Source: Nitrospirota bacterium
GTDB taxonomy: Bacteria; Nitrospirota; Thermodesulfovibrionia; Thermodesulfovibrionales; UBA6898
Assembly: GCA_016215155.1 (NCBI GenBank)
Contig: JACRLQ010000024.1
Location: 1-64,000, forward strand
Reading direction: 5' to 3'
DNA length: 64,000 nucleotides
Shown here piece by piece: positions 11,165-50,802 of the stretch (position 1 is its first letter; each line of letters starts with the position of its first letter). Made by a program: the position numbers and the translations under genes. Below the pieces are notes generated by a model. The model saw only the letters and a program-made list of their open reading frames with translations, was not told where the DNA came from and ran no database searches.

Positions 11165-11407
11165 TCAGATCTTTGATATTTGAAAAATGACAGGATTGTA
11201 TTATGATAAAAACGATAATTCAAGATCAAACAGGCTGTTGAAAAACTCTTGTTTTGTCAGTTAAAGCCGTCATACTCGTGCTTAAGGCACCTACTGTTGG
11301 CGAAGGCGGGTATCCAATCTCCTTAAAAACAATGGATTCCCGTCTGCACGGGAATGACGAAAAACAGCTGAAAACACTTTTTCAACAGCCCGCAAAGACC
11401 TGACCCC
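11161..11407. repeat. Palindromic repeat element split by a MITE
   Basis: The left arm GGGGTCAGATCTTTGAT (from 11161) is matched in inverted orientation by the right arm, which ends CCTGACCCC at 11407. If the MITE at 11231-11392 and one copy of its CAAA duplication are removed, the right arm regains continuity (a GATCAAAGACCTGACCCC end) and the match extends to about 22 bases. The undisturbed element would be about 81 bp. It looks like a REP-type palindrome; no transposase is nearby. This explains the 380-base gap between ppsR and the antitoxin gene. Confidence 0.7.
11231..11392 (+). mobile_element. MITE copy 1 (162 bp, CAAA target duplication)
   Basis: It is bounded by inverted ends: CAGGCTGTTGAAAAA at the left and, reading the other strand at the right, CGGGCTGTTGAAAAA. 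It is flanked on both sides by the four bases CAAA (11227-11230 and 11393-11396). It encodes nothing. An internal hairpin built on ATTCCCGT...ACGGGAAT lies near 11335-11356. A second copy with about ten differences is at 31824-31986. It interrupts the palindromic element 11161-11407. Confidence 0.85.
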
Positions 11408-26654: not shown

Positions 26655-27740
26655 ATGATCGATAAAGGCTTCTGGAAAAACAGGAAGGTCTTTCTGACAG
26701 GACATACAGGCTTCAAGGGTTCCTGGCTCTGCCTCTGGCTGAATTTACTCGGGGCAAAAGTTACGGGATATGCCCTCGACCCTCCCACAAAACCAAGCCT
26801 CTTCAAGCTAGGTAACATAGAAGACGTAATAAAATCTGTCATCTCGGATATTCGGGACAAAGAAACCCTTGCCCGGTGCATGTCTGAGACCGCGCCCGAG
26901 ATTGTCATTCATATGGCTGCACAGCCACTGGTGAGAGAATCATATAAACTCCCGTTCGAAACGTATGAGACAAACGTTATGGGTACGGTAAACGTGTTTG
27001 AGGCTGCAAGAAAATGCAGTACGGTAAGAGCCATTATAAACGTGACGTCGGACAAATGTTATGAGAATAAAGAGTGGGTCTGGGGCTACAGGGAAAATGA
27101 GCCTTTGGGAGGATATGATCCTTATTCCAGCAGTAAGGCCTGCTCGGAACTGGTGACCTCCGCCTATCGAAATTCTTTTTTTCATCCGGACAGGCACTCT
27201 GTTCATTGCGTTGGTGTGGCTTCGGCCAGGGCTGGCAATGTCATCGGCGGGGGTGACTGGGCCGCTGACAGGCTGTTACCTGATTGTATAAGGGCTCTCT
27301 TAAAGGGTGAGAAGATTCTGGTGAGAAATCCGCACTCGATCAGACCCTGGCAGCATGTGGTTGAGCCTCTATCGGGCTATCTGATGCTTGCGCAGAAACT
27401 ATACGAAGGCGGCCCGGATTTCTCCGGGCCATGGAACTTCGGCCCGAGTGAATCCGACTCTAAACAGGTCGAATGGCTTGTAAACCGACTCTGCGAGAGG
27501 TGGGGCGAAAATGCGTCATATGCGACCGATGAAAATAATGAACAGCCGCATGAGACGCATCACCTCAAACTTGACTGTTCCAAGGCCATGACCTGGCTGG
27601 GATGGCATCCGCGCTGGGACCTGGGAAGGGCGATAGACCGCACCGTCGAGTGGACCCGGGTCTATGCGCAGTCCGGCGATGTAATGGCAGTATGCCTGAA
27701 CCAGATCGAAGAATATTCTGAAGCAATTGCCGGGAGTTAG
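26655..27740 (+). CDS. rfbG: CDP-glucose 4,6-dehydratase
   Basis: This 361-aa short-chain dehydrogenase-fold enzyme converts CDP-glucose to CDP-4-keto-6-deoxyglucose with bound NAD. The Rossmann motif is VFLTGHTGFKGSW (residues 11-23), and the catalytic YxxxK is in YDPYSSSKACSE. A conserved RAGNVIGGGDWA segment marks the family. It lies between rfbF and rfbH, and its 3' end is close to or overlaps the rfbH start. Confidence 0.95.
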   Translation: MIDKGFWKNRKVFLTGHTGFKGSWLCLWLNLLGAKVTGYALDPPTKPSLFKLGNIEDVIKSVISDIRDKETLARCMSETAPEIVIHMAAQPLVRESYKLPFETYETNVMGTVNVFEAARKCSTVRAIINVTSDKCYENKEWVWGYRENEPLGGYDPYSSSKACSELVTSAYRNSFFHPDRHSVHCVGVASARAGNVIGGGDWAADRLLPDCIRALLKGEKILVRNPHSIRPWQHVVEPLSGYLMLAQKLYEGGPDFSGPWNFGPSESDSKQVEWLVNRLCERWGENASYATDENNEQPHETHHLKLDCSKAMTWLGWHPRWDLGRAIDRTVEWTRVYAQSGDVMAVCLNQIEEYSEAIAGS

Positions 27741-27744
27741 TATT

Positions 27745-29094
27745 TTGTCTTCTGACGATACAAAAACAAAACTAAGGGACGAAGCGATACAGGCCGCGGT
27801 GAGATATTACGAGGCCGCGTACCGCAATGGAAAAGTCTTTGCCGCGGGTGACCGCATCCCCTATGCCGGCAGGGTATTTGACGACAGGGAGATCGCGGCC
27901 CTCATTGATTCGTCACTCGATTTCTGGTTGACCGCAGGACGGTACGCGGACAGGTTCGAAAAAGATTTCGCAAGGTTCCTTGATATTGAATACTGCTGCC
28001 TGACAAATTCCGGATCGTCGGCGAACCTTCTTGCCTTTATGTCCCTCACATCCCCTAAACTCGGCGACAGGAGGATCAGAAAGGGCGACGAGGTTATTAC
28101 CGTTGCGGCGGCCTTCCCGACAACAGTGGCGCCGATAATCCAGTATGGGGCGGTGCCTGTGTTTGTCGATATCACGCTTCCCGGATATAATATCGACTGT
28201 TCTCTTATTGAGTCCGCGCTTTCTGAAAAGACGAAGGCGGTGATGCTGGCGCATACCCTCGGAAACCCTTTTGATCTCCAATACGTCAGGGATTTCTGCG
28301 ACAGGCATGGCCTTTGGCTTATTGAAGACAACTGCGATGCCCTTGGGTCTAAATATCTGTATAATGGCCGGTGGAAATACACCGGGACGATCGGACATAT
28401 CGGCACGTCAAGTTTTTACCCTCCCCACCACATGACGATGGGCGAAGGCGGCGCCGTGTATACGGATGACCCGCAACTCCGGAGACTGGTTGAGTCCTTC
28501 AGGGACTGGGGGCGGGATTGCTGGTGTCCCTCGGGAAGAGACAACACCTGTAAACATCGTTTTGACCAGCAGTTCGGCGAACTTCCAAAAGGGTATGACC
28601 ACAAGTATGTGTATTCCCATTTCGGTTACAACCTCAAGGTGACGGATATGCAGGCCGCTATAGGCTGCGCCCAGCTGAAAAAACTCCCGGCCTTCATCGT
28701 AGCCAGAAAGAATAACTGGGACTATTTAAGAAACGGGTTGAAAGACGCATCTGACAGGTTTGTCCTGCCCGAGGCCGCTCCGAATTCTGAACCAAGCTGG
28801 TTCGGTTTTATACTCACCGTGAAAAATGATGCCGGCTTTACAAGAGACGACGTAGTGACTCACCTTGAAATGAGCGGTATCCAGACCAGAATGCTGTTTG
28901 CAGGCAACCTGATAAAACACCCCTGTTTCGATGAGATGAGGAAGAATGGCGAAGGTTATCGAGTTGCCGGAGAACTCAAAAATACGGATATAATCATGAG
29001 CCGGTCTTTTTGGGTCGGTGTTTATCCCGGGATGATTGATGAAATGCTCGATTTCATAATCGGCTGTATCAGGAAATTTGCGCTCGAAAAGTGA
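27745..29094 (+). CDS. rfbH: CDP-4-keto-6-deoxyglucose 3-dehydratase (PMP-dependent)
   Basis: This roughly 449-aa aminotransferase-fold enzyme (E1) removes the C3 hydroxyl in CDP-3,6-dideoxyhexose synthesis, using pyridoxamine phosphate and a [2Fe-2S] centre. The segment TSSFYPPHHMTMGEGG carries the diagnostic His in place of the PLP lysine. Cysteines for the cluster lie in RDCWCPSGRDNTCKH. A TTG at 27745 with GGGAG eight bases before is my preferred start; another in-frame TTG is at 27727. A partner reductase (E3, DdhD) is not seen in the window. Confidence 0.93.
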   Translation: MSSDDTKTKLRDEAIQAAVRYYEAAYRNGKVFAAGDRIPYAGRVFDDREIAALIDSSLDFWLTAGRYADRFEKDFARFLDIEYCCLTNSGSSANLLAFMSLTSPKLGDRRIRKGDEVITVAAAFPTTVAPIIQYGAVPVFVDITLPGYNIDCSLIESALSEKTKAVMLAHTLGNPFDLQYVRDFCDRHGLWLIEDNCDALGSKYLYNGRWKYTGTIGHIGTSSFYPPHHMTMGEGGAVYTDDPQLRRLVESFRDWGRDCWCPSGRDNTCKHRFDQQFGELPKGYDHKYVYSHFGYNLKVTDMQAAIGCAQLKKLPAFIVARKNNWDYLRNGLKDASDRFVLPEAAPNSEPSWFGFILTVKNDAGFTRDDVVTHLEMSGIQTRMLFAGNLIKHPCFDEMRKNGEGYRVAGELKNTDIIMSRSFWVGVYPGMIDEMLDFIIGCIRKFALEK

Positions 29095-29172
29095 TAATAG
29101 CGACCTGATGGCAATGGGAAACCTTTAAAATTTATTATAATAGAGCGATTGTTGATCTAAGGGAGTTAAAAT

Positions 29173-30198
29173 ATGGAATTTACCGTAAGCGGAAAACTTA
29201 TTGGGCATGGCCATCCGGTTTTTATTATAGCGGAGGGTTGTGATAATCATTTGGGAAGTCTTGACGTTGCAAAAGAGATGGCAAGACGCGCAGCATTGGC
29301 GGGATGTGATGCAATAAAATTTCAACACCATATACCTGATGAAGAAATGCTTCCCGATGTTCCAATGTCTGATAATTTTGATACGCCGTTATATGAATTC
29401 CTGTTGAAGAATGCATTAAGTCTGAAACAGCACGAAGAATTAAAAGACTATTGTGAAAAGACAGGCATAATATACTTATGTACGCCGTTCAGCTGGAAAG
29501 CAGCGCAGGAAATTAACGAACTGGGCGTTCCTGTTTTTAAGATCGGCTCTGGTGAAATGACCGATATCCCGACTCTTGAAAGAATCGCAGGGTTCGGGAA
29601 ACCTATGATCGTCTCCACCGGAATGTGCACATTTGAAGAAATAGACCGGACCTACAAAGCGCTTGTTAATACGGGTGTTCCGTTGGCATTAACGAATTGC
29701 GTTTCCGAATATCCGCCGGTATATGAGGACATAAGCCTCGGTGTTCTGACAAAAATGATTACCAGGTATCCCAATGCCGTCATCGGCCATTCTGATCATA
29801 CGCCGGATTTGTATACTTCCTATGCCGCTGTCGCCATCGGGGCCAGGATCATAGAAAAACATGTCATTATTTCGAAGCAAACGCCGGGACCTGACCAGTC
29901 TGTTTCGATTGATTTCTTTGATCTTCACCAGTTGGTGGATGGCGTTCGCAAGACAGAAAAAGCGCTGGGAAACGAGAAATTTGTTCATAAAAAAGAAGAG
30001 AAAATAAGAGAGTGGGCTTTCAGAAGCATCGTGTCACTGCGGGACATAAAAAAAGGAGAAACTATTGACGGAGATATGATCTGGTCCAAAAGGCCAGGAA
30101 CGGGAATCCCCTCATATCAAAGAAATGCCGTTATTGGAAAGAAGGCAGCAAACAATATCAGGATTAATACGCTTGTCAAATGGGAAGACCTAGAATAA
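29173..30198 (+). CDS. NeuB-family nonulosonate synthase (sialic/legionaminic acid synthase-like)
   Basis: This 341-aa enzyme has a TIM-barrel synthase domain (AEGCDNHLGSLDVAKEM, DAIKFQHHIPDE, FKIGSGEMTD, IGHSDHT) and a C-terminal SAF (antifreeze-like) domain from about residue 285. It would condense PEP with a six-carbon amino sugar to a nine-carbon nonulosonate. GGGAG precedes the ATG. The next gene, a NeuC-like epimerase, overlaps it by 19 bases. Which nonulosonate is made cannot be told; no CMP-nonulosonate synthetase is in the window. Confidence 0.9.
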   Translation: MEFTVSGKLIGHGHPVFIIAEGCDNHLGSLDVAKEMARRAALAGCDAIKFQHHIPDEEMLPDVPMSDNFDTPLYEFLLKNALSLKQHEELKDYCEKTGIIYLCTPFSWKAAQEINELGVPVFKIGSGEMTDIPTLERIAGFGKPMIVSTGMCTFEEIDRTYKALVNTGVPLALTNCVSEYPPVYEDISLGVLTKMITRYPNAVIGHSDHTPDLYTSYAAVAIGARIIEKHVIISKQTPGPDQSVSIDFFDLHQLVDGVRKTEKALGNEKFVHKKEEKIREWAFRSIVSLRDIKKGETIDGDMIWSKRPGTGIPSYQRNAVIGKKAANNIRINTLVKWEDLE

Positions 30199-31352
30199 AA
30201 GCTATTAAAAAGAAAAAGATCCTGTTTGTCACAGGTTCCAGGGGCGAATGGGGGTATATACGGCCCATTCTGAAGCTCATTCAGAAAAGAGGCGACGTCG
30301 AATATGTACTGGTGGTTACCAATATGCACCTTCTCCCTTCATATGGTAATTCATACAGGGAGATAGAAAAAGATGGCTTTAAAATCCATTACAAGATAAA
30401 CATGTCTCTCGATGGATACACCCATTTTACCATGGCAAAATCGCTGGGTATTTTTATGACCTCGCTCCCGGACATAATTGAAAATGAAAAACCTGATTGG
30501 ATACTTTTGTCCGGAGACAGGGGAGAGCAACTGGTCGGTGCGATTATCGGAGGTTATACGTATACGCCTGTTGCGCACATTCAGGCCGGAGAGTTGTCGG
30601 GGAATATTGACGGTATGACGCGTCACGCGATCGGCAAATACGCTCATATACATCTCGCGGCCAATGAAGATGCAGAGAAGCGGCTCATCAAACTTGGCGA
30701 AGAACCCTTCCGGATCTTTAATGTCGGCGCTCCACAACTGGATGAGCTGGTAAGAGACCGTGTTTCGGAGGTTAGCGAACTTGAAATAAAATATTCCGTG
30801 CGCCTTTCAAAGGGGTGTCTCCTTGTGGTGATGCATCCGATTACCGAGGAATTTACAAAAATTGACAAACAGATACAGGTGGTGATCGAATCAATTAACA
30901 GTTTTGATCTGCCTAAAATACTCGTTATGCCGAATAATGACGCAGGAAGCATGGCGGTGAGAGATGGAATTAATAAATATAAATCCGGCGAATACCACAT
31001 TTTCACTAACCTGAGGCGCAAGGAATATTTGGGATTTCTGAAAAACGCCAGGTGTATCGTGGGCAATTCCAGCTCAGGCCTGCTGGAAGCGCCGACATTT
31101 AAAGTTCCTGCAGTCAACATCGGTCGCCTCCAGCACCAGCGTATGCGTGGCATTAATGTTATCGACGTTGGCTATGATTACAATGAAATTGTTAATGGAA
31201 TAAAGAAGGCAATGTCGAAAGACTTCCGCGCTTTGCTTGACAGAAAATGCGTCAATCCCTATGGTGATGGGCATTCATCCGAGCGGATTCTTAATATTTT
31301 ACTTTCTGCCAAAATTGATGATAAAATCTTGATTAAGAATATAACTTATTAA
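30180..31352 (+). CDS. Hydrolysing UDP-GlcNAc 2-epimerase (NeuC/LegG-like)
   Basis: This 390-aa protein shows the epimerase_2 fold: VTGSRGEWGYIRPILK at the start, SGDRGEQL, HIQAGELSGNIDGMTRHAIGKYAHIH and a later GNSSSGLLEAP. It releases UDP and yields ManNAc or a related sugar for the neighbouring NeuB-type synthase. The first ATG overlaps the upstream gene; a start a few codons later is possible. Together the two genes form a nonulosonate module without a cytidylyltransferase in view. Confidence 0.9.
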   Translation: MGRPRIKAIKKKKILFVTGSRGEWGYIRPILKLIQKRGDVEYVLVVTNMHLLPSYGNSYREIEKDGFKIHYKINMSLDGYTHFTMAKSLGIFMTSLPDIIENEKPDWILLSGDRGEQLVGAIIGGYTYTPVAHIQAGELSGNIDGMTRHAIGKYAHIHLAANEDAEKRLIKLGEEPFRIFNVGAPQLDELVRDRVSEVSELEIKYSVRLSKGCLLVVMHPITEEFTKIDKQIQVVIESINSFDLPKILVMPNNDAGSMAVRDGINKYKSGEYHIFTNLRRKEYLGFLKNARCIVGNSSSGLLEAPTFKVPAVNIGRLQHQRMRGINVIDVGYDYNEIVNGIKKAMSKDFRALLDRKCVNPYGDGHSSERILNILLSAKIDDKILIKNITY

Positions 31353-31364
31353 TACCATATAGTT

Positions 31365-31739
31365 ATGAACGAACAACTTGAAAAATACTGCATAAGTGGG
31401 TCGGAGACAATCCTCAGCGCGATTGAGCGTATTGAACAAAATAATATGAGAAGCGTTTTTGTGATTCAGGATGGCAGGGTGGTCGGCGTGGTGAGTCAGG
31501 GAGATATTCTGCGTGCGATTATTATGGGTTCCAACCTTTATACTCAGATAAATAAGATAATGACGACCTCCTTTATCTACTTGCGGAAAAAGGATATTAA
31601 AGAGGCAATCAGATTGTTTAAAACCTACTACTTTTCTCTTATTCCTGTGTTGACCGATGATTTTAAATTAAAGGACGTCATTCTGTTTACAGATTTGATA
31701 AATATGTTGGAACTGAATGAAAATGACCGAAGCCGCTGA
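31365..31739 (+). CDS. Stand-alone CBS-domain pair protein
   Basis: This 124-aa protein consists of two CBS motifs: ETILSAIERIEQNNMRSVFVIQ..VVGVVSQGDILRA, and a weaker second half with KEAIRLFKTYYFSLIPVL. CBS pairs bind adenine nucleotides. In nonulosonate clusters a CBS pair is often fused to a sugar-phosphate nucleotidyltransferase (PtmE-type); here that partner is absent. The MITE at 31824 begins 85 bases after the stop, so it may be a remnant of such a fusion, or a normal small regulator. Confidence 0.75.
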   Translation: MNEQLEKYCISGSETILSAIERIEQNNMRSVFVIQDGRVVGVVSQGDILRAIIMGSNLYTQINKIMTTSFIYLRKKDIKEAIRLFKTYYFSLIPVLTDDFKLKDVILFTDLINMLELNENDRSR

Positions 31740-31823
31740 TGTCCCGACATTAATTCATTAAGGCCGCCTTTCTGCGAAGGACCCGTCGTGAGAATGTTCA
31801 ACAATTTGGATTTCAGTCCTAAA

Positions 31824-31986
31824 CAGGCTGTTGAAAAACTCTTGTTTTGTCAGTCAGAGCCGTCATACTCGCGCTTAAGGCACCTACTGTTGGCGAAGGC
31901 GGGTATCCAAACTCCTTAAAACCAATGGATTCCCGTCTGCACGGGAATGACGCGAAAACATCTGAAAACACTTTTTCAACAGACTG
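31824..31986 (+). mobile_element. MITE copy 2 (163 bp, TAAA target duplication)
   Basis: It starts CAGGCTGTTGAAAAA and ends, on the other strand, CAGTCTGTTGAAAAA. TAAA flanks it on both sides (31820-31823 and 31987-31990). It is in the same orientation as the copy at 11231-11392 and differs from it at about ten positions by eye. The central ATTCCCGT/ACGGGAAT hairpin is kept. It fills most of the 330-base gap between the CBS gene and the ThDP enzyme. Confidence 0.85.
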
Positions 31987-32068
31987 TAAAATGTTAACAT
32001 ACTATAAAATATTGTATCTTCATGATGTTACACTGTTTGTATAAATCAGTCTTGGGACAAAATCAGGA

Positions 32069-33824
32069 ATGAAGAAGAAAACTGCAGATTATATCGCGGA
32101 TTTATTATCAGAACTCGGCGTGACAAACGTCTTTTCTGTTGTCGGCGGCGGAGCGATGCATTTAAATAACGCATTTGGTCGGCACAAACAAATTAAATGC
32201 ATCTATAACCATCATGAACAGGCAAGCGCCATTGCTGCCGAGAGCTTTGCGCGGGTAGATAACAGCATTGCGGTCGTATGCGTCACATCCGGACCAGGCG
32301 GAACAAATGCGGTTACAGGTGTTTTATGCGCTTATCTGGATAACATTCCGTTGCTGGTCATTTCCGGGCAAACACGATATGCAACGACTGTTGAAGGTTC
32401 AGGTTTGAACTTGAGGCAGTTCGGAGAGCAGGAATACAGGATCGTGGAATCAGTCAGGCCCATGACAAAGTATGCGGTTATGGTCAAAGATCCTCGGGAG
32501 ATAAGATATCACGTTGAGAGGGCAGTTTATGAAGCAACGACTGGCAGGAAAGGTCCCTGCTGGATTGATGTCCCGCTTGACGTGCAGGCTGCGATTATTG
32601 AAGACACGGAGCTTGCGGGTTTTGTTCCGGAGAAGAAAAAGCTATTCGATGATGCAATCTCCAGGCAAATTCTTGACCGATTACAGAGGGCGCAGCGTCC
32701 GGTAATAATAGCCGGTTCAGCGATCAGGCAGGCAGGATGGCTGGACGATTTTCACGTGTTGGCCGAAAAACTGAATATGCCTGTCCTTTGTCCTACCGCT
32801 GTTTCTGACTACTTTCATTACGACCATCATTTGTATTTCGGCAATTTCGGAGTATTCGGAGGACGTACTGGAAACTTCATAATACAAAATGCTGACTTGA
32901 TTCTCGCCCTTGGGGCGAGAATGTCTTTTAAACAAATCGGGTTCAATTATCAGGCGTTTGCACCGGGAGCTGAAAAGGTGGTTGTGGATATCGACAGTGA
33001 AGAGCTCTTTCCCCGTTCACGCTGATGTCGTTGACGTAATAGCATCGCTAAATAGATTGCTCCTTCATGAGCTGCCTGAAAGAAGCAACTGGCTGAAATA
33101 TTGTGATATGTTAAAAGAACGCTTTGAACGATTGCAAAAAAAACAAACGATAAGTCAATCAGTAAATCCCTATTTTTTTGCGAGCAGATTGCAGGATAAA
33201 CTGCCGAATGACGCCATCGTCGTTGTCGGGAACAGTTGCGCATGCGCAGCAGTGCAGCAATACGGCATATCAAAAAAGGGACAACGTCTTTATGCCAACA
33301 TAAATTGCGGCACCATGGGATATGACATCCCTGCTGCGATTGGCGCCGCCATGAGAAGTAAAAAGCCGGTAGTATGTCTTACGGGTGATGGAAGTTTTCA
33401 GATGAATATTCAGGAACTGCAGACAATCGTTCACAACAGATTACCCGTTAAATTGATAGTGTTTAACAATAACGGGTATCAGGCAATAGTGCATACGCAG
33501 ACCAATTTCTTTAATGGGGTATTGTCCGGGTGTACTGCTGAAAGTGGAATAAGCTTTCCTTCTTTCAGAAAGCTTGCAGGTGCGTACGAGATCCCGTATA
33601 AAAAAATTAAAACACATGTTTCTGTCGACCGCGGGATAGACTGGCTTTTATCTCTGGACTCCTATGGCTTATGTGAGGTCATGCAGGACAACGCACAGTC
33701 GATCGAACCGAGAGTGATAAGTAAAAAATTGGCTGATGGCACAATGGTTTCGCCGCCTATTGATGACCTGGCGCCTTTTCTCTCAAAAGAAGAATACGAT
33801 AAATATTCTCGATTCGCAGAATGA
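32069..33824 (+). pseudogene. Frameshifted ThDP-dependent enzyme (acetolactate synthase/YerE-like)
   Basis: Two overlapping frames together make one ThDP enzyme of about 585 residues. The first half (32069 to about 33010) holds the catalytic Glu region YNHHEQASAIAAESFAR and the central domain up to VVVDIDSEEL. It then runs into a stop. The second half (from about 33010, ending 33824) continues PVHADVVDVIASL and has the ThDP motif GDGSFQMN...FNNNGY. Family members have about eight more residues at the junction, so a small out-of-frame deletion near 33005-33015 is likely. After rfbFGH it may have been a YerE-like acetyl transferase for a branched sugar. Activity is doubtful unless the shift is a sequence error. 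Confidence 0.75.
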
Positions 33825-34711
33825 AGACAGCTATTGTAACAGGTGCGACGGGGTTTATAGGCCATTGGCTTTTGAAAGAGCTTGTTGAAAATGATGTTTT
33901 TGTGTATGCGATATGTCGCAGAAATTCAAGCCGGCTTTCAAGATTGGCAAATTTGCCGAATATTGAGATAATAGAACTTGACATGGAAGACATCGCCCAA
34001 CTGCCGGGATATTGCAGCCAGGCAGATACATTTTATCATTTAGCGTGGGAGGGAGGGCGCGAAGATTTCCTGGCGCAGATAAAAAATATTCACTGTGCGG
34101 CACTTGCGCTGCAGACAGCCAAAACCATCGGCGTGAAACACTTTATTATGACGGGTTCACAGGCAGAATACGGAATATGTTTCGACAGAGTCGATGAAAA
34201 TCATATTACAAATCCTATTACCGCTTACGGGGTCTGTAAGCTCTCGGCATATTGGACATTGAAAGTATTGGCAGAACAGATATCGGTTTTATTCACCTGG
34301 GTGCGGATTTTTAGTGTTTACGGCAACGACGACAGCAATAACAAATTATTGATTTCTTATCTTGTTGACTGCCTGCAGCAGAACAAAGAACCGGGATTAA
34401 CGGAATGCGGACAGTTATGGGATTTTCTCTATGCCAAGGATGCGGCGAATGCTTTGTATTTATTGGGCATTAAAGAGAAAACGGGTGTCTATAATTTGGC
34501 GTCCGGAGAAAGCAGAATCCTTAAAGATTTTCTTGTCGAAGCCCGAGACTTATTGAACCCCGATATCAAGCTTAACTTTGGAACTAACGGAAATTGCACT
34601 CAGGGCGCATTGAACGTAAATGTCGACAAAATTAAAATGGCGACCGGCTGGGCACCTAAAACAAGTTTTAGGGAAGGCATCCTGAAGTTCAAAAAGTCAC
34701 ATGCGCTATAG
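33821..34711 (+). CDS. NAD-dependent epimerase/dehydratase (SDR), sugar reductase
   Basis: This 296-aa extended SDR has the NAD motif VTGATGFIGHW at residues 5-15, the catalytic pair in YGVCKLS (YxxxK), and the family's LWDFLYAKDAANAL segment. It starts within the last four bases of the ThDP gene. In CDP-yersiniose synthesis the corresponding neighbour (YerF) reduces the branched ketosugar. A similar role here is inferred from order alone. The N-terminus and length are normal and the frame is intact. Confidence 0.85.
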   Translation: MKTAIVTGATGFIGHWLLKELVENDVFVYAICRRNSSRLSRLANLPNIEIIELDMEDIAQLPGYCSQADTFYHLAWEGGREDFLAQIKNIHCAALALQTAKTIGVKHFIMTGSQAEYGICFDRVDENHITNPITAYGVCKLSAYWTLKVLAEQISVLFTWVRIFSVYGNDDSNNKLLISYLVDCLQQNKEPGLTECGQLWDFLYAKDAANALYLLGIKEKTGVYNLASGESRILKDFLVEARDLLNPDIKLNFGTNGNCTQGALNVNVDKIKMATGWAPKTSFREGILKFKKSHAL

Positions 34712-46314: not shown

Positions 46315-49300
46315 ATGGATATGGTAAATATAGGTCTAGATGCCGGGTCTGTCAGTGTAAAACTGGTCATTGTGGACAGTCACGGCAGCATAACCGGAGG
46401 CATCTATAAAAGGCACAAAGGCCAGCCCCTGGTTACCACGCTCGAACTTCTGCAGCCCTTGCTTGAAAGTCACGAATGCAACTCACTTTCAGTTACCGGT
46501 TCGTCCGGCAGGCTGATAGGCTCGGTCCTTGGGATCGAGCCGGTCAATGAGGTCGTGGCCCACGCATATGCGACGAAAAAACTTTATCCGACGGTACGGA
46601 CGATCATTGAACTCGGGGGGGAAGACTCCAAGCTTATCGTACTTGAACAGGACTCCGATACGATAAGGGACTTCTCGATGAATTCAGTCTGCGCCGCGGG
46701 CACGGGCTCGTTTCTTGATCAGCAGGCTGAAAGACTCCGGCTTACGATCGAAGAGTTCAGTTCCCTGAGCCTGAGATCGAAGAACCCTCCCAGGATAGCC
46801 GGCCGATGCAGCGTGTTCGCGAAATCCGACATGATACACCTCCAGCAGATCGCCACCCCGGTTGAAGACATTGTCGCGGGTCTCTGTTTCGCGGTCGCGA
46901 GAAATTTCAAGGGATCTATCGCGCGCGGCAGAAGCATTGCCGGGCCTGTGTCCTTCCAGGGAGGCGTAGCCGCCAATGCGGGCATGGAAAGGGCCTTTAA
47001 CGAGGTCTTCGGCCTTAAAGACCTGTTCGTTCCGAAAGAACATGCCTTCATGGGCGCCATAGGCGCCGCGCTCAAAGATATGGCGTCTAAAAAGACATAT
47101 TCCTGCAGTCCTGGTCAGCTCCAGGGGCTCTCTGATTTTATTTCCTCTTCCCGGCCTAACGAAAAAGGGCATCAACCTCTAATAAGGGAAGGCGACGGCT
47201 TTCAGAAAAGACATGTTTGTCCAGGGACCGGGGATCAGGGACCAGGGGGGACCGGCAAGCTCTCAGGGGATTCCGTCGTTACCGATCCCCGATACCCGGT
47301 CTCTGCCTTTTTAGGTGTCGATATCGGGTCTATAAGCACAAACCTCGCGGTCATCGACGGACAGTGTAACCTTCTCGCCAAACGCTACCTGATGACGGCA
47401 GGCAGACCTATCGAGGCGGTCAAAACAGGGCTCAGGGAAATAGCCGAGGAACTGGGCAGTTCGGTAGAAATCGTCGGGGTGGGAACAACAGGTTCCGGCA
47501 GGTATATGATCGCCGACTATATAGGGGCCGACATCGTTAAAAACGAGATCACCGCGCAGGCTACCGCTGCGGCATTCATAGACAAGGATGTCGACACCAT
47601 ATTCGAGATAGGGGGCCAGGACTCAAAGTATATTGACGTTGACACCATATTCGAGATCGGGGGCCAGGACTCAAAGTATATTTCCTTAAGGGATGGCGTG
47701 ATAGTGGACTTCGAGATGAACAAGGCCTGCGCTGCAGGGACAGGCTCGTTTCTTGAAGAACAGGCCGAAAAACTCAGCATTTCCGTGAAGGGCGATTTCG
47801 AGCGGTCGGCCTTTCTCTCGACAGACCCCTGCAGGCTCGGCGAACGCTGTACCGTATTCATGGAAAATTCGCTCATGGCGAATCTCCAGAGAGGGGCCGC
47901 TACCGAAGACCTGCTTGCCGGACTCTCATACTCGATCGTCCAGAACTACATAAACCGGGTGGTATGCAAACGGCCGGTAGGCAGAAAGGTCTTTTTCCAG
48001 GGAGGGGTAGCCTTCAACAAATCCGTTGTCGCGGCATTCGAAAAATACCTGGGGACCGAGATAATCGTCCCGCCGAACCACGACGTTACGGGCGCTATAG
48101 GGATGGCGCTTATCGCGATGAAACATATGGACAGCCTTAAATCAACCCCCCCTCCCCCCCTTATCAGGGGGGGGCAGGAAGGGTGTGAGCTTACCAAGGT
48201 GGCGCCGGGGGTAGGTGAACCCAAATCCAGATTCAAGGGGTTCGGCTTCGCGGAACGCCCGTATGAGATATCGTCCTTTGAGTGCAAAGGATGTCCCAAT
48301 GTCTGCGAGATCAACAGGATAAGGGTCGAGGGGGAGGACGGACACCTTTTTTACGGCGGAAGGTGCGAAAAGTATGATGTGCGGAAAAACAGGCCGCAAA
48401 ACGAACTCCCCGACCTCTTCAGGTTCAGGGAAGAAAAGCTTTGGGAAACACATCTAAGATACAGCGAAAAATTAAAAGTAAAAAGTAAAAATACACCCCC
48501 CTCTCCTCTTTCCTCTCCCTCCAGGGGCGGGGATGTGTTAAATAGTTCCCCTCCCTTGAGGGGAGGGGATAAAGGGGAGGGTGACGGCCCTATCAGCAAA
48601 AAGTCACGCCCCAAAATAGGCATACCCTATGTCTTTTATTTCCAGGATTATCTTCCGTTTTGGTCAACATTATTATGGGAACTCGGCTTCGACGTTATCG
48701 TATCTCCTCCGACGGACAGAAAAATCATCGACCTTGGGCTCGAAAATATCCTTGCCGAGACCTGTTTCCCTGTAAAGACGGCCGCCGGGCATATCAGGCA
48801 CCTGATAGACAGCGGGGTCGATACCATATTTATTCCTAGCTTTGTGGAACTCAACACTGAAAATGACATATTCAAAAAGGGAGTGGCCTGCCCATATACC
48901 CAGACCATGCCATACTCGGCAAGGATGGCCTTCAGGCAGACCCGGTTTCTTACTCCAATCGTGTCCCTGCATCGCGGGGACGACTTTCTAAGAAAGCAGC
49001 TTATCGGGGCGCTCAGGGGATATCGGCTGAAATCACGCGCCGTAACAGAGGCAATTAAAACAGCATGGCGGGCGCAGGCGGATTTTATAAGCGCCATAAA
49101 GGCGGAGGGCGGCAAGGTGCTTTCAGGACTCAGGGAAAGGGCCGTAGTCATTGTGGGCAGGTCATACAATTCGTTCGACAGGGGCATGAACCTCAATATC
49201 CCAAAAAAGCTTGCTGACCTTGGGGTAATCTCAATACCTATGGACTTTTTACCGATCGAGGAAGAGGACATCTCCGCCGAATGGCCGGACATGTACTGGC

Positions 49301-50802
49301 GCGCCGGACAACGGATATTGAGCGCGGCCAGAATAATAAGGCGACACCCCCTTCTCCATGCGGTCTATATCGGAAGTTTTTCTTGTGGGCCTGACTCATT
49401 CATCATTAAATTCTTCGAGGAGGAACTCGCGGGCAGACCCTACCTGCACCTTGAGATCGATGCGCACAGCGCCGATGCGGGGGCAATCACGAGGTGTGAG
49501 GCCTTCATGGACAGCGTAAGCAATAATGAAGGCGCAAAGCTCAGGGAACCAGCGGCAAACAGTAGGAAACCCGGGTCAAACGGAAGGCACAAAGATAAAA
49601 GAACGGTCTTTATCCCCAGGATGTCCGACCATACCCTGGCAGTTGCAGCCGCATTTCAGTATTGCGGCACTGAGGCCCTGGTCCTCCCCGAGCCGTCCAG
49701 GGACTCTGTTGACCTGGGCAGGAAATTTGTCTCAGGGAAGGAGTGTTATCCCTGTGCCGTCACGACCGGAGATATGGCAAAGAAGATAGCCGAGCCGGGT
49801 TTTGATCCTGACAGGGCAGCATTTTTCATGCCCTCCGGCTCAGGGCCCTGCAGATTCGGTCAGTATAATATATTTCAGAGAATGGTGATCAGGGACCTCG
49901 GGCTCGATAATACACCTGTGCTGTCCCCTGTCCAGAATGAGGATTTCTATAAGCATCTGGGTAATCTCGGCAAGAATTTTACTATGAGGGCATGGGAAGG
50001 GATCATCGCCATCGAACTGCTCACTAAATGCCTGCATGAAACCAGACCGTATGAGAAGGAAAAAGGCGCGTCCGACGCGGTATATACGGATTACCTGGAT
50101 AGAATATGCAGAACCATGAAGACCTCCCGGCCCGATACGGAAAACATACTTGGGGCGGCGCTTGGAGCGTTCAAGGGCGTTCCGGCGGACCACGAGATGA
50201 GACCGCTCATAGGGATAGTAGGGGAGATATTCGTTCGCTCGAATAAATTCTCCAACGAGGACCTTGTGCGCAGGGTAGAGTCCCTCGGGGGCGAGGCATA
50301 CCTTGCTCCGGTCGAAGAATGGCTGTACTACGTAAACTATACAGGCCGCAGGGCGGCCATGGTTAAAAAAGACTTTGTGACGGCCGCCGGACTTTTCATA
50401 AAAAATTACTTTCAGAAAAAGGCCGAACACAGGTTGGCGGCGCGCTTTCACGGACACCTCAAGGCCGTCCCTGAACCTAAGACCGAAGATATAATAAAAC
50501 TGGCCTCACCCTATGTACATCACTCGTTCGAGGGTGAAACGATCCTCAGTATCGGAAAAAGCATCGATATGGTCAGCCGCCTGGGCGCCCGCGGGATTAT
50601 TAGCGCCATGCCCTTTGGGTGCATGCCCGGCACGATCGTAAGCGGACTTATGAGGGGACTGACCTCGGACCTGGGGATGCCGTGCCTGAGCATCCCCTAT
50701 GACGGCACTGAATCCTCCTCGACAACTATCCAGCTGGAGGCCTTTATGGACCAGGCAAGGGAGTCCATGTCAAAAAAACAGGGCACATGCCGGAGAGTTT
50801 GA
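46315..50802 (+). CDS. Giant acyl-CoA dehydratase activase-like protein (two ASKHA domains + DUF2229)
   Basis: This 1495-aa protein carries two BadF/BcrA-type ASKHA ATPase domains. Domain 1 (about 3-265) has GLDAGSVSVKLV, ELGGEDSKLI and the [4Fe-4S] cysteine in CAAGTGSF. Domain 2 (about 330-610) has GVDIGSISTNLA, IGGQDSKYI and CAAGTGSF. The rest holds cysteine-rich CKGCPNVCEI and a DUF2229-like domain starting near GIPYVFYFQDYLPFW (about 770), then a long C-terminal region with FGCMPGT. Such activases drive ATP-dependent one-electron reduction of 2-hydroxyacyl-CoA dehydratases or unknown partners. No dehydratase genes adjoin. Odd points: a 16-residue tandem duplication at 425-456 and two repeat-derived linkers (about 611-623 and 727-757). 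Confidence 0.88.
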   Translation: MDMVNIGLDAGSVSVKLVIVDSHGSITGGIYKRHKGQPLVTTLELLQPLLESHECNSLSVTGSSGRLIGSVLGIEPVNEVVAHAYATKKLYPTVRTIIELGGEDSKLIVLEQDSDTIRDFSMNSVCAAGTGSFLDQQAERLRLTIEEFSSLSLRSKNPPRIAGRCSVFAKSDMIHLQQIATPVEDIVAGLCFAVARNFKGSIARGRSIAGPVSFQGGVAANAGMERAFNEVFGLKDLFVPKEHAFMGAIGAALKDMASKKTYSCSPGQLQGLSDFISSSRPNEKGHQPLIREGDGFQKRHVCPGTGDQGPGGTGKLSGDSVVTDPRYPVSAFLGVDIGSISTNLAVIDGQCNLLAKRYLMTAGRPIEAVKTGLREIAEELGSSVEIVGVGTTGSGRYMIADYIGADIVKNEITAQATAAAFIDKDVDTIFEIGGQDSKYIDVDTIFEIGGQDSKYISLRDGVIVDFEMNKACAAGTGSFLEEQAEKLSISVKGDFERSAFLSTDPCRLGERCTVFMENSLMANLQRGAATEDLLAGLSYSIVQNYINRVVCKRPVGRKVFFQGGVAFNKSVVAAFEKYLGTEIIVPPNHDVTGAIGMALIAMKHMDSLKSTPPPPLIRGGQEGCELTKVAPGVGEPKSRFKGFGFAERPYEISSFECKGCPNVCEINRIRVEGEDGHLFYGGRCEKYDVRKNRPQNELPDLFRFREEKLWETHLRYSEKLKVKSKNTPPSPLSSPSRGGDVLNSSPPLRGGDKGEGDGPISKKSRPKIGIPYVFYFQDYLPFWSTLLWELGFDVIVSPPTDRKIIDLGLENILAETCFPVKTAAGHIRHLIDSGVDTIFIPSFVELNTENDIFKKGVACPYTQTMPYSARMAFRQTRFLTPIVSLHRGDDFLRKQLIGALRGYRLKSRAVTEAIKTAWRAQADFISAIKAEGGKVLSGLRERAVVIVGRSYNSFDRGMNLNIPKKLADLGVISIPMDFLPIEEEDISAEWPDMYWRAGQRILSAARIIRRHPLLHAVYIGSFSCGPDSFIIKFFEEELAGRPYLHLEIDAHSADAGAITRCEAFMDSVSNNEGAKLREPAANSRKPGSNGRHKDKRTVFIPRMSDHTLAVAAAFQYCGTEALVLPEPSRDSVDLGRKFVSGKECYPCAVTTGDMAKKIAEPGFDPDRAAFFMPSGSGPCRFGQYNIFQRMVIRDLGLDNTPVLSPVQNEDFYKHLGNLGKNFTMRAWEGIIAIELLTKCLHETRPYEKEKGASDAVYTDYLDRICRTMKTSRPDTENILGAALGAFKGVPADHEMRPLIGIVGEIFVRSNKFSNEDLVRRVESLGGEAYLAPVEEWLYYVNYTGRRAAMVKKDFVTAAGLFIKNYFQKKAEHRLAARFHGHLKAVPEPKTEDIIKLASPYVHHSFEGETILSIGKSIDMVSRLGARGIISAMPFGCMPGTIVSGLMRGLTSDLGMPCLSIPYDGTESSSTTIQLEAFMDQARESMSKKQGTCRRV
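47587..47682 (+). repeat. Tandem 48-bp duplication within the activase gene
   Basis: Unit 1 is 47587-47634, unit 2 is 47635-47682. Both encode DVDTIFEIGGQDSKYI. The only differences are three synonymous changes (GAT/GAC, GTC/GTT, ATA/ATC). The duplicated peptide contains the nucleotide-binding IGGQDSK motif. Confidence 0.95.
48146..48183. repeat. C/G-run palindrome inside coding sequence
   Basis: A poly-C stretch CCCCCCCTCCCCCCC and a poly-G stretch AGGGGGGGGC separated by TTATC would form a hairpin. It is read in frame as STPPPPLIRGGQEG within the activase, at about residues 611-623. Confidence 0.7.
48493..48583. repeat. Dispersed-repeat-like palindromic sequence inside coding sequence
   Basis: The segment CCCTTGAGGGGAGGGGATAA and AGGGGAGGG at its right half, with CTCTCCTCTTTCCTCTCCCT at its left, form a CT-rich/GA-rich inverted pair. 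Intergenic repeats of this kind are common in related genomes. Here it is translated as a Pro/Ser/Gly-rich linker (about residues 727-757) without breaking the frame. Confidence 0.65.

Follow-up and report, generated by a model that had tools for sequence, protein, structure and literature searches.

A MITE family with copy-specific 4-bp target duplications and a nested 22-bp repeat in a Nitrospirota genome

Several described groups of mobile elements and repeats resemble parts of the element studied here. In the ISAzs10 group of the IS5 family, copies from Azospirillum and Skermanella have CAGG ends, and their target duplications are exact YTAR in three cases (TTAG, CTAA, CTAG) and match it at 3 of 4 positions in two, with just one end recognisable in one copy. 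IS1182-family elements with CAGGCTGTTGAAAAAC-like ends occur in MAGs of Nitrospirae and other bacteria, and IS1272, of the same family, replaces palindromes without duplicating any target sequence (PMC5678879). IS110 elements that target palindromic repeats are known (PMC1525189), and REPs tagged with CGTC have been described (PMC3733652).

We analyzed a 64-kb window (the whole stretch of DNA under study) from a Nitrospirota bacterium, in which a first-pass annotation had placed two near-identical MITE copies with shared ends and a different 4-base direct repeat around each. These placements were correct (Table 1); the copies are ~95% identical and have 15-bp CAGGCTGTTGAAAAA ends in common. 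The motif CTGTTGAAAAA has 4 exact sites in the window and 9 sites with at most one mismatch, against 1.6 expected.

Table 1 Features of the two MITE copies in the window (strand as reported; "." where none applies).
Feature	Position	Strand	Length	Sequence
MITE copy 2	31824..31986	+	163 bp	
Copy 2, left target-site duplication	31820..31823	.		TAAA
Copy 2, right target-site duplication	31987..31990	.		TAAA
Copy 2, left terminal inverted repeat	31824..31838	+		CAGGCTGTTGAAAAA
Copy 2, right terminal inverted repeat (1 mismatch)	31972..31986	-		CAGTCTGTTGAAAAA
Copy 2, first REP-like palindrome, split by the 22-mer	31861..31908	+		CGTCATACTCG..CGAAGGCGGGTATCC
Copy 2, 22-bp dispersed repeat (1 mismatch to consensus)	31872..31893	+		CGCTTAAGGCACCTACTGTTGG
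Copy 2, second palindrome	31929..31948	.		ATTCCCGTCTGCACGGGAAT
MITE copy 1	11231..11392	+	162 bp	
Copy 1, left target-site duplication	11227..11230	.		CAAA
Copy 1, right target-site duplication	11393..11396	.		CAAA
Copy 1, 22-bp dispersed repeat (exact consensus)	11279..11300	+		TGCTTAAGGCACCTACTGTTGG

Copy 2 has a CBS-domain ORF (31365-31739) on one side and a TPP-enzyme ORF (32069-33025) on the other, and its surroundings (27727-34711) form a nonulosonic-acid-type sugar cluster with genes for a DegT aminotransferase, NeuB, a UDP-GlcNAc 2-epimerase, the CBS protein, the TPP enzyme and an epimerase. The TPP-dependent enzyme downstream of the copy, of the acetolactate synthase type, is divided over two overlapping frames (32069-33025, with the N-terminal and central domains, and 32910-33824, with the C-terminal domain), so the split within 32069-33824 is a frameshift or a sequencing error. 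No Rfam match in the window reached the gathering threshold, and no promoter was seen inside or near copy 2, at which the same scan marked one terminator-like hairpin. Elsewhere in the window, a 1495-aa BadF/CoA-activase-like ORF (46315-50802) reads a stretch of palindromic repeats, CCCCTCCCTTGAGGGGAGGGG and its neighbours, in frame around 48440-48600.

The annotation had described a two-copy family, which holds within the window only. BLAST against the own genome, a fragmented MAG of 3.43 Mb in 101 contigs, returned 75 places, reduced by hand to ~40 MITE loci (intact, truncated or interrupted), 24 of which have both ends. The copies measure 119-186 bp, save one of 44 bp, and are non-coding and mostly intergenic, at unrelated loci. 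Directly outside the ends, exact 4-bp duplications are present in 16 of the 24 complete copies; when left and right flanks were re-paired among copies in 20,000 trials, the count averaged 1.76 and never exceeded 8. Duplications of 3 bp or 5 bp fit no copy, nor did ends shifted by 1-5 bases, and most of the eight complete copies without a perfect duplication agree at 2 or 3 of the 4 positions. The duplicated sequence is the same within a copy and varies between copies; it takes 11 different values and is therefore not part of the element, contrary to the outcome that the annotation had named as fatal to its reading. The consensus is YTAR, matched exactly by six of the perfect duplications, the other ten being AT-rich near-matches; copies in the same-genus genome G003 have CTAG and TTAG.

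These observations support the assignment of the family as a MITE: non-coding and bounded by terminal inverted repeats, it lies at many unrelated loci with a 4-bp duplication specific to each copy. Dispersal by segmental duplication, or by recombination between repeats, is very improbable. Some exchange among copies is plausible, because the palindromes inside the element have relatives among other dispersed palindromes, and one copy (L003) appears mosaic; as the main route, however, such dispersal is refuted by the duplications exactly at the ends and by the flanks, of which no sequence is common to the copies. The spread of the copies is transposition, as the annotation had proposed.

At four loci (L010, L011, L019 and L067) the MITE starts 1-2 bp past the stop codon of an ORF, with the stop codon within the duplicated target. 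In copies directly after stop codons, a YTAR or TGAA duplication preserves the stop. The G004 region syntenic to L019 lacks the element, and its intergenic DNA is too diverged for the duplication to be read; for copy 2 a base-resolved empty site was not found, as no relative retains the flanks.

Between the ends, the MITE core of ~140 bp consists of two REP-like palindromes in opposite orientation, which start with CGTC and read ATTCCC-N8-GGGAAT. The core folds into a single long hairpin (z -3.95 as RNA and z -6.56 as DNA), and the two inner palindromes would form this long hairpin if the element were transcribed.

The annotation had seen no mobilising transposase in the window, and this extends, as far as searched, to the assembled genome: no transposase with the MITE ends was found in either, and an IS5-type query had no match in the own genome. 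The sole DDE_Tnp_1/IS1182 gene of the genome (C15; ends CCCTTCAGAAGCTGTGAAAAAATT, 27% identity) was rejected as a partner. Fragmented MAG assemblies such as the present one often lack IS copies or merge them into one, so the missing partner is to be read as absent from this assembly. An IS with matching ends and 4-bp duplications, which the annotation had proposed to look for, was found in relatives, though not in the own genome.

Two kinds of coding elements with such ends were identified. The first is an IS5-family element (L129) in G018, a genome of the same family and another genus, which has ends CAGGCTGTTGAAA, a TTAG duplication and a transposase (NF033581) with 58% identity to ISAzs10; it is the single such element, and its end is shared with the MITE over only 13 bp. 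The second kind belongs to the IS1182 family: in the same-family genome G006 its left end equals the MITE left end over 20 bp (CAGGCTGTTGAAAAACTCTT), and in the same-genus genome G004 an end of this kind is multi-copy. At all three loci of this family at which both ends are clearly read (L190, L191 and L192), the duplication is TTGA. Ends of the IS1182 type at L171, L172, L173 and L175 (G004), L191 and L192 adjoin GGGGTCAG..CTTGA-like sequences, which are a repeated target of these ends, unlike that of the MITE. At another IS1182-family locus (L195), the left TTCA and the right TGAA (flanks TCAGGTCTTCA / TGAAGACCTGA) form an inverted and not a direct repeat, a pattern that would fit an element inserted into a palindrome or substituted for one, by analogy with IS1272.

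Judging from these ends and duplications, the MITE is very probably a non-autonomous derivative of a DDE transposon, moved in trans by a transposase of the IS5/IS1182 group. Such a transposase, from a coding element of the kind found in relatives, would recognise the CAGGCTGTTGAAAAA ends and stagger its cut by 4 bp at YTAR-like sites, giving the 4-bp duplications. Because it too makes YTAR duplications, an ISAzs10-like IS5-family element is somewhat the likelier source; it would since have been lost from the genome. The short shared end, its occurrence in another genus and the longer match of the IS1182 ends speak against this choice. A possible, though less probable, source is the IS1182-family element that is multi-copy in G004, from which the MITE would derive by internal deletion or end capture. 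The length of the shared left end, its presence in the same genus and the 4-bp length of the duplications agree with such an origin. However, TTGA is found in none of the 16 exact MITE duplications and at no MITE copy, the G004 end copies lie mostly within the GGGGTCAG..CTTGA-like sequence, and YTAR duplications belong to L129 and the ISAzs10 group.

The MITE copies fall into two main length classes 22 bp apart, and this difference is an extra TGCTTAARGCACCTACTGTTGG. The 22-mer is found at three positions in the family, namely in the first palindrome in either orientation and, in L006, in the second; at each of them in the MITE alignment, and in other palindromes, occupied and empty sites differ by exactly 22 bp. 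It seems to have entered the MITE separately. The 22-mer is also a dispersed repeat, with 40 copies in the own genome, 17-28 in G004, G007, G008 and G024, and none in the same-genus genomes G001-G003; in viral contigs, one match was seen. It is often inside palindromes, and tandem 22-bp units occur in places. For several unrelated palindromes there are empty-like sites whose junction agrees fully or almost so, at 0-2 mismatches in 22; these sites are paralogous sequences without the insert and not orthologous empty alleles. Positions 1 and 11 partly covary (T-A 64, T-G 8, C-G 7 and G-C 1 of 83). At L183 (G017:C49), a palindrome of the ATTCCCG type holds another short palindromic insert, CCTGCCTGCCGGCAGGCAGG, in its loop.

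A perfect stem of at least 5 bp is present in 8 of 31 flank clusters of the 22-mer, against a null mean of 2.5 and maximum of 8, with both the test and its thresholds set after the contexts had been inspected; an earlier per-copy test gave a larger excess, but one inflated by related copies. A preference of the 22-mer for palindromes is likely, though not universal. Its host palindromes include some without shared sequence (CCCCTCT..AGAGGGG, ACCCCCGC..GCGGGGGT and CCTCCCT..AGGGAGG).

An IS110-like element was observed at seven loci (L021, L026, L027, L029, L039, L040 and L084), each time in the 22-mer within a MITE palindrome. Contig ends cut it off at most of these loci, and all that is visible of it lies at such ends or is a remnant; it comprises an N-terminus with weak IS110 profile matches below the cut-off and subterminal repeats TGTATTAAACCTGTC. 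A search for the IS110 C-terminal domain gave no match, owing to the truncation of the element at contig ends.

We give about even chances to the 22-mer being a mobile unit in its own right, with a small, partly covarying stem NGCT-TAA-AGCN'. Such a unit would insert as a precise 22 bp into unrelated palindromes of this Nitrospirota family, in their loops or arms, leave the target unduplicated and serve as a landing site for the IS110-like element. Somewhat short of even, but a serious alternative, is that the 22-mer is not itself mobile and either was copied between palindromic repeats by gene conversion or is a scar of the IS110-like element. Many of its hosts are CGTCATTCCCG-type palindromes, which could convert one another, and every IS110-like end seen lies exactly inside the 22-mer (CCAACAGTAG / AGGTGCTTTAAGCA), the two ends abutting its two halves. 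Against conversion or a scar stand the tandem units and the occurrence in palindromes without common sequence. Precise excision is the generally accepted behaviour of IS110 elements; it would restore the target and leave no end sequences, which argues against a scar. If mobile, the 22-mer would rank among the smallest known mobile units, and the question would arise of which enzyme moves it.

Neither the MITE end sequence nor the 22-mer motif was found in the literature searched, and this Nitrospirota family, for which the transposase group is clear, is apparently previously unreported. The MITE itself is an ordinary kind of element; the nested 22-bp repeat is less ordinary. The many MITE copies act as a natural recorder, as their comparison shows the repeat entering the same element at three positions.

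Among known systems, the ISAzs10 group of Azospirillum resembles the MITE in its CAGG ends with a GAAAAA block and in its 4-bp YTAR duplications, but it encodes a transposase, is ~1.3 kb long and ends in CAGGCCGCGGAAAAA, whereas the MITE ends in CAGGCTGTTGAAAAA. The IS1182-family elements of Nitrospirae (L190-L192) have in common with it the CAGGCTGTTGAAAAAC ends and the 4-bp length of the duplication, and ISPsp5 and ISGdi16, further off, have TGTTGAAAAA in their ends; members of this family differ from the MITE in their length of ~1.6 kb, their ~500-aa transposase and their TTGA duplication. IS1272 differs again, as it replaces palindromes without a duplication whereas the MITE makes duplications. 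For the 22-mer, a comparison is offered by the SDRs of cyanobacteria, which are 20-odd bp long. Elhai et al. reportedly described these in 2008 as very small mobile repeated elements; like the 22-mer they are small dispersed repeats, although from another phylum and of another sequence. The inner palindromes of the MITE recall CGTC-tagged REPs in their CGTC start and the dRS3-type repeats of Neisseria in their ATTCCC-N8-GGGAAT pattern, both as a resemblance only: here, the palindromes are the cargo of a MITE with ends of its own.
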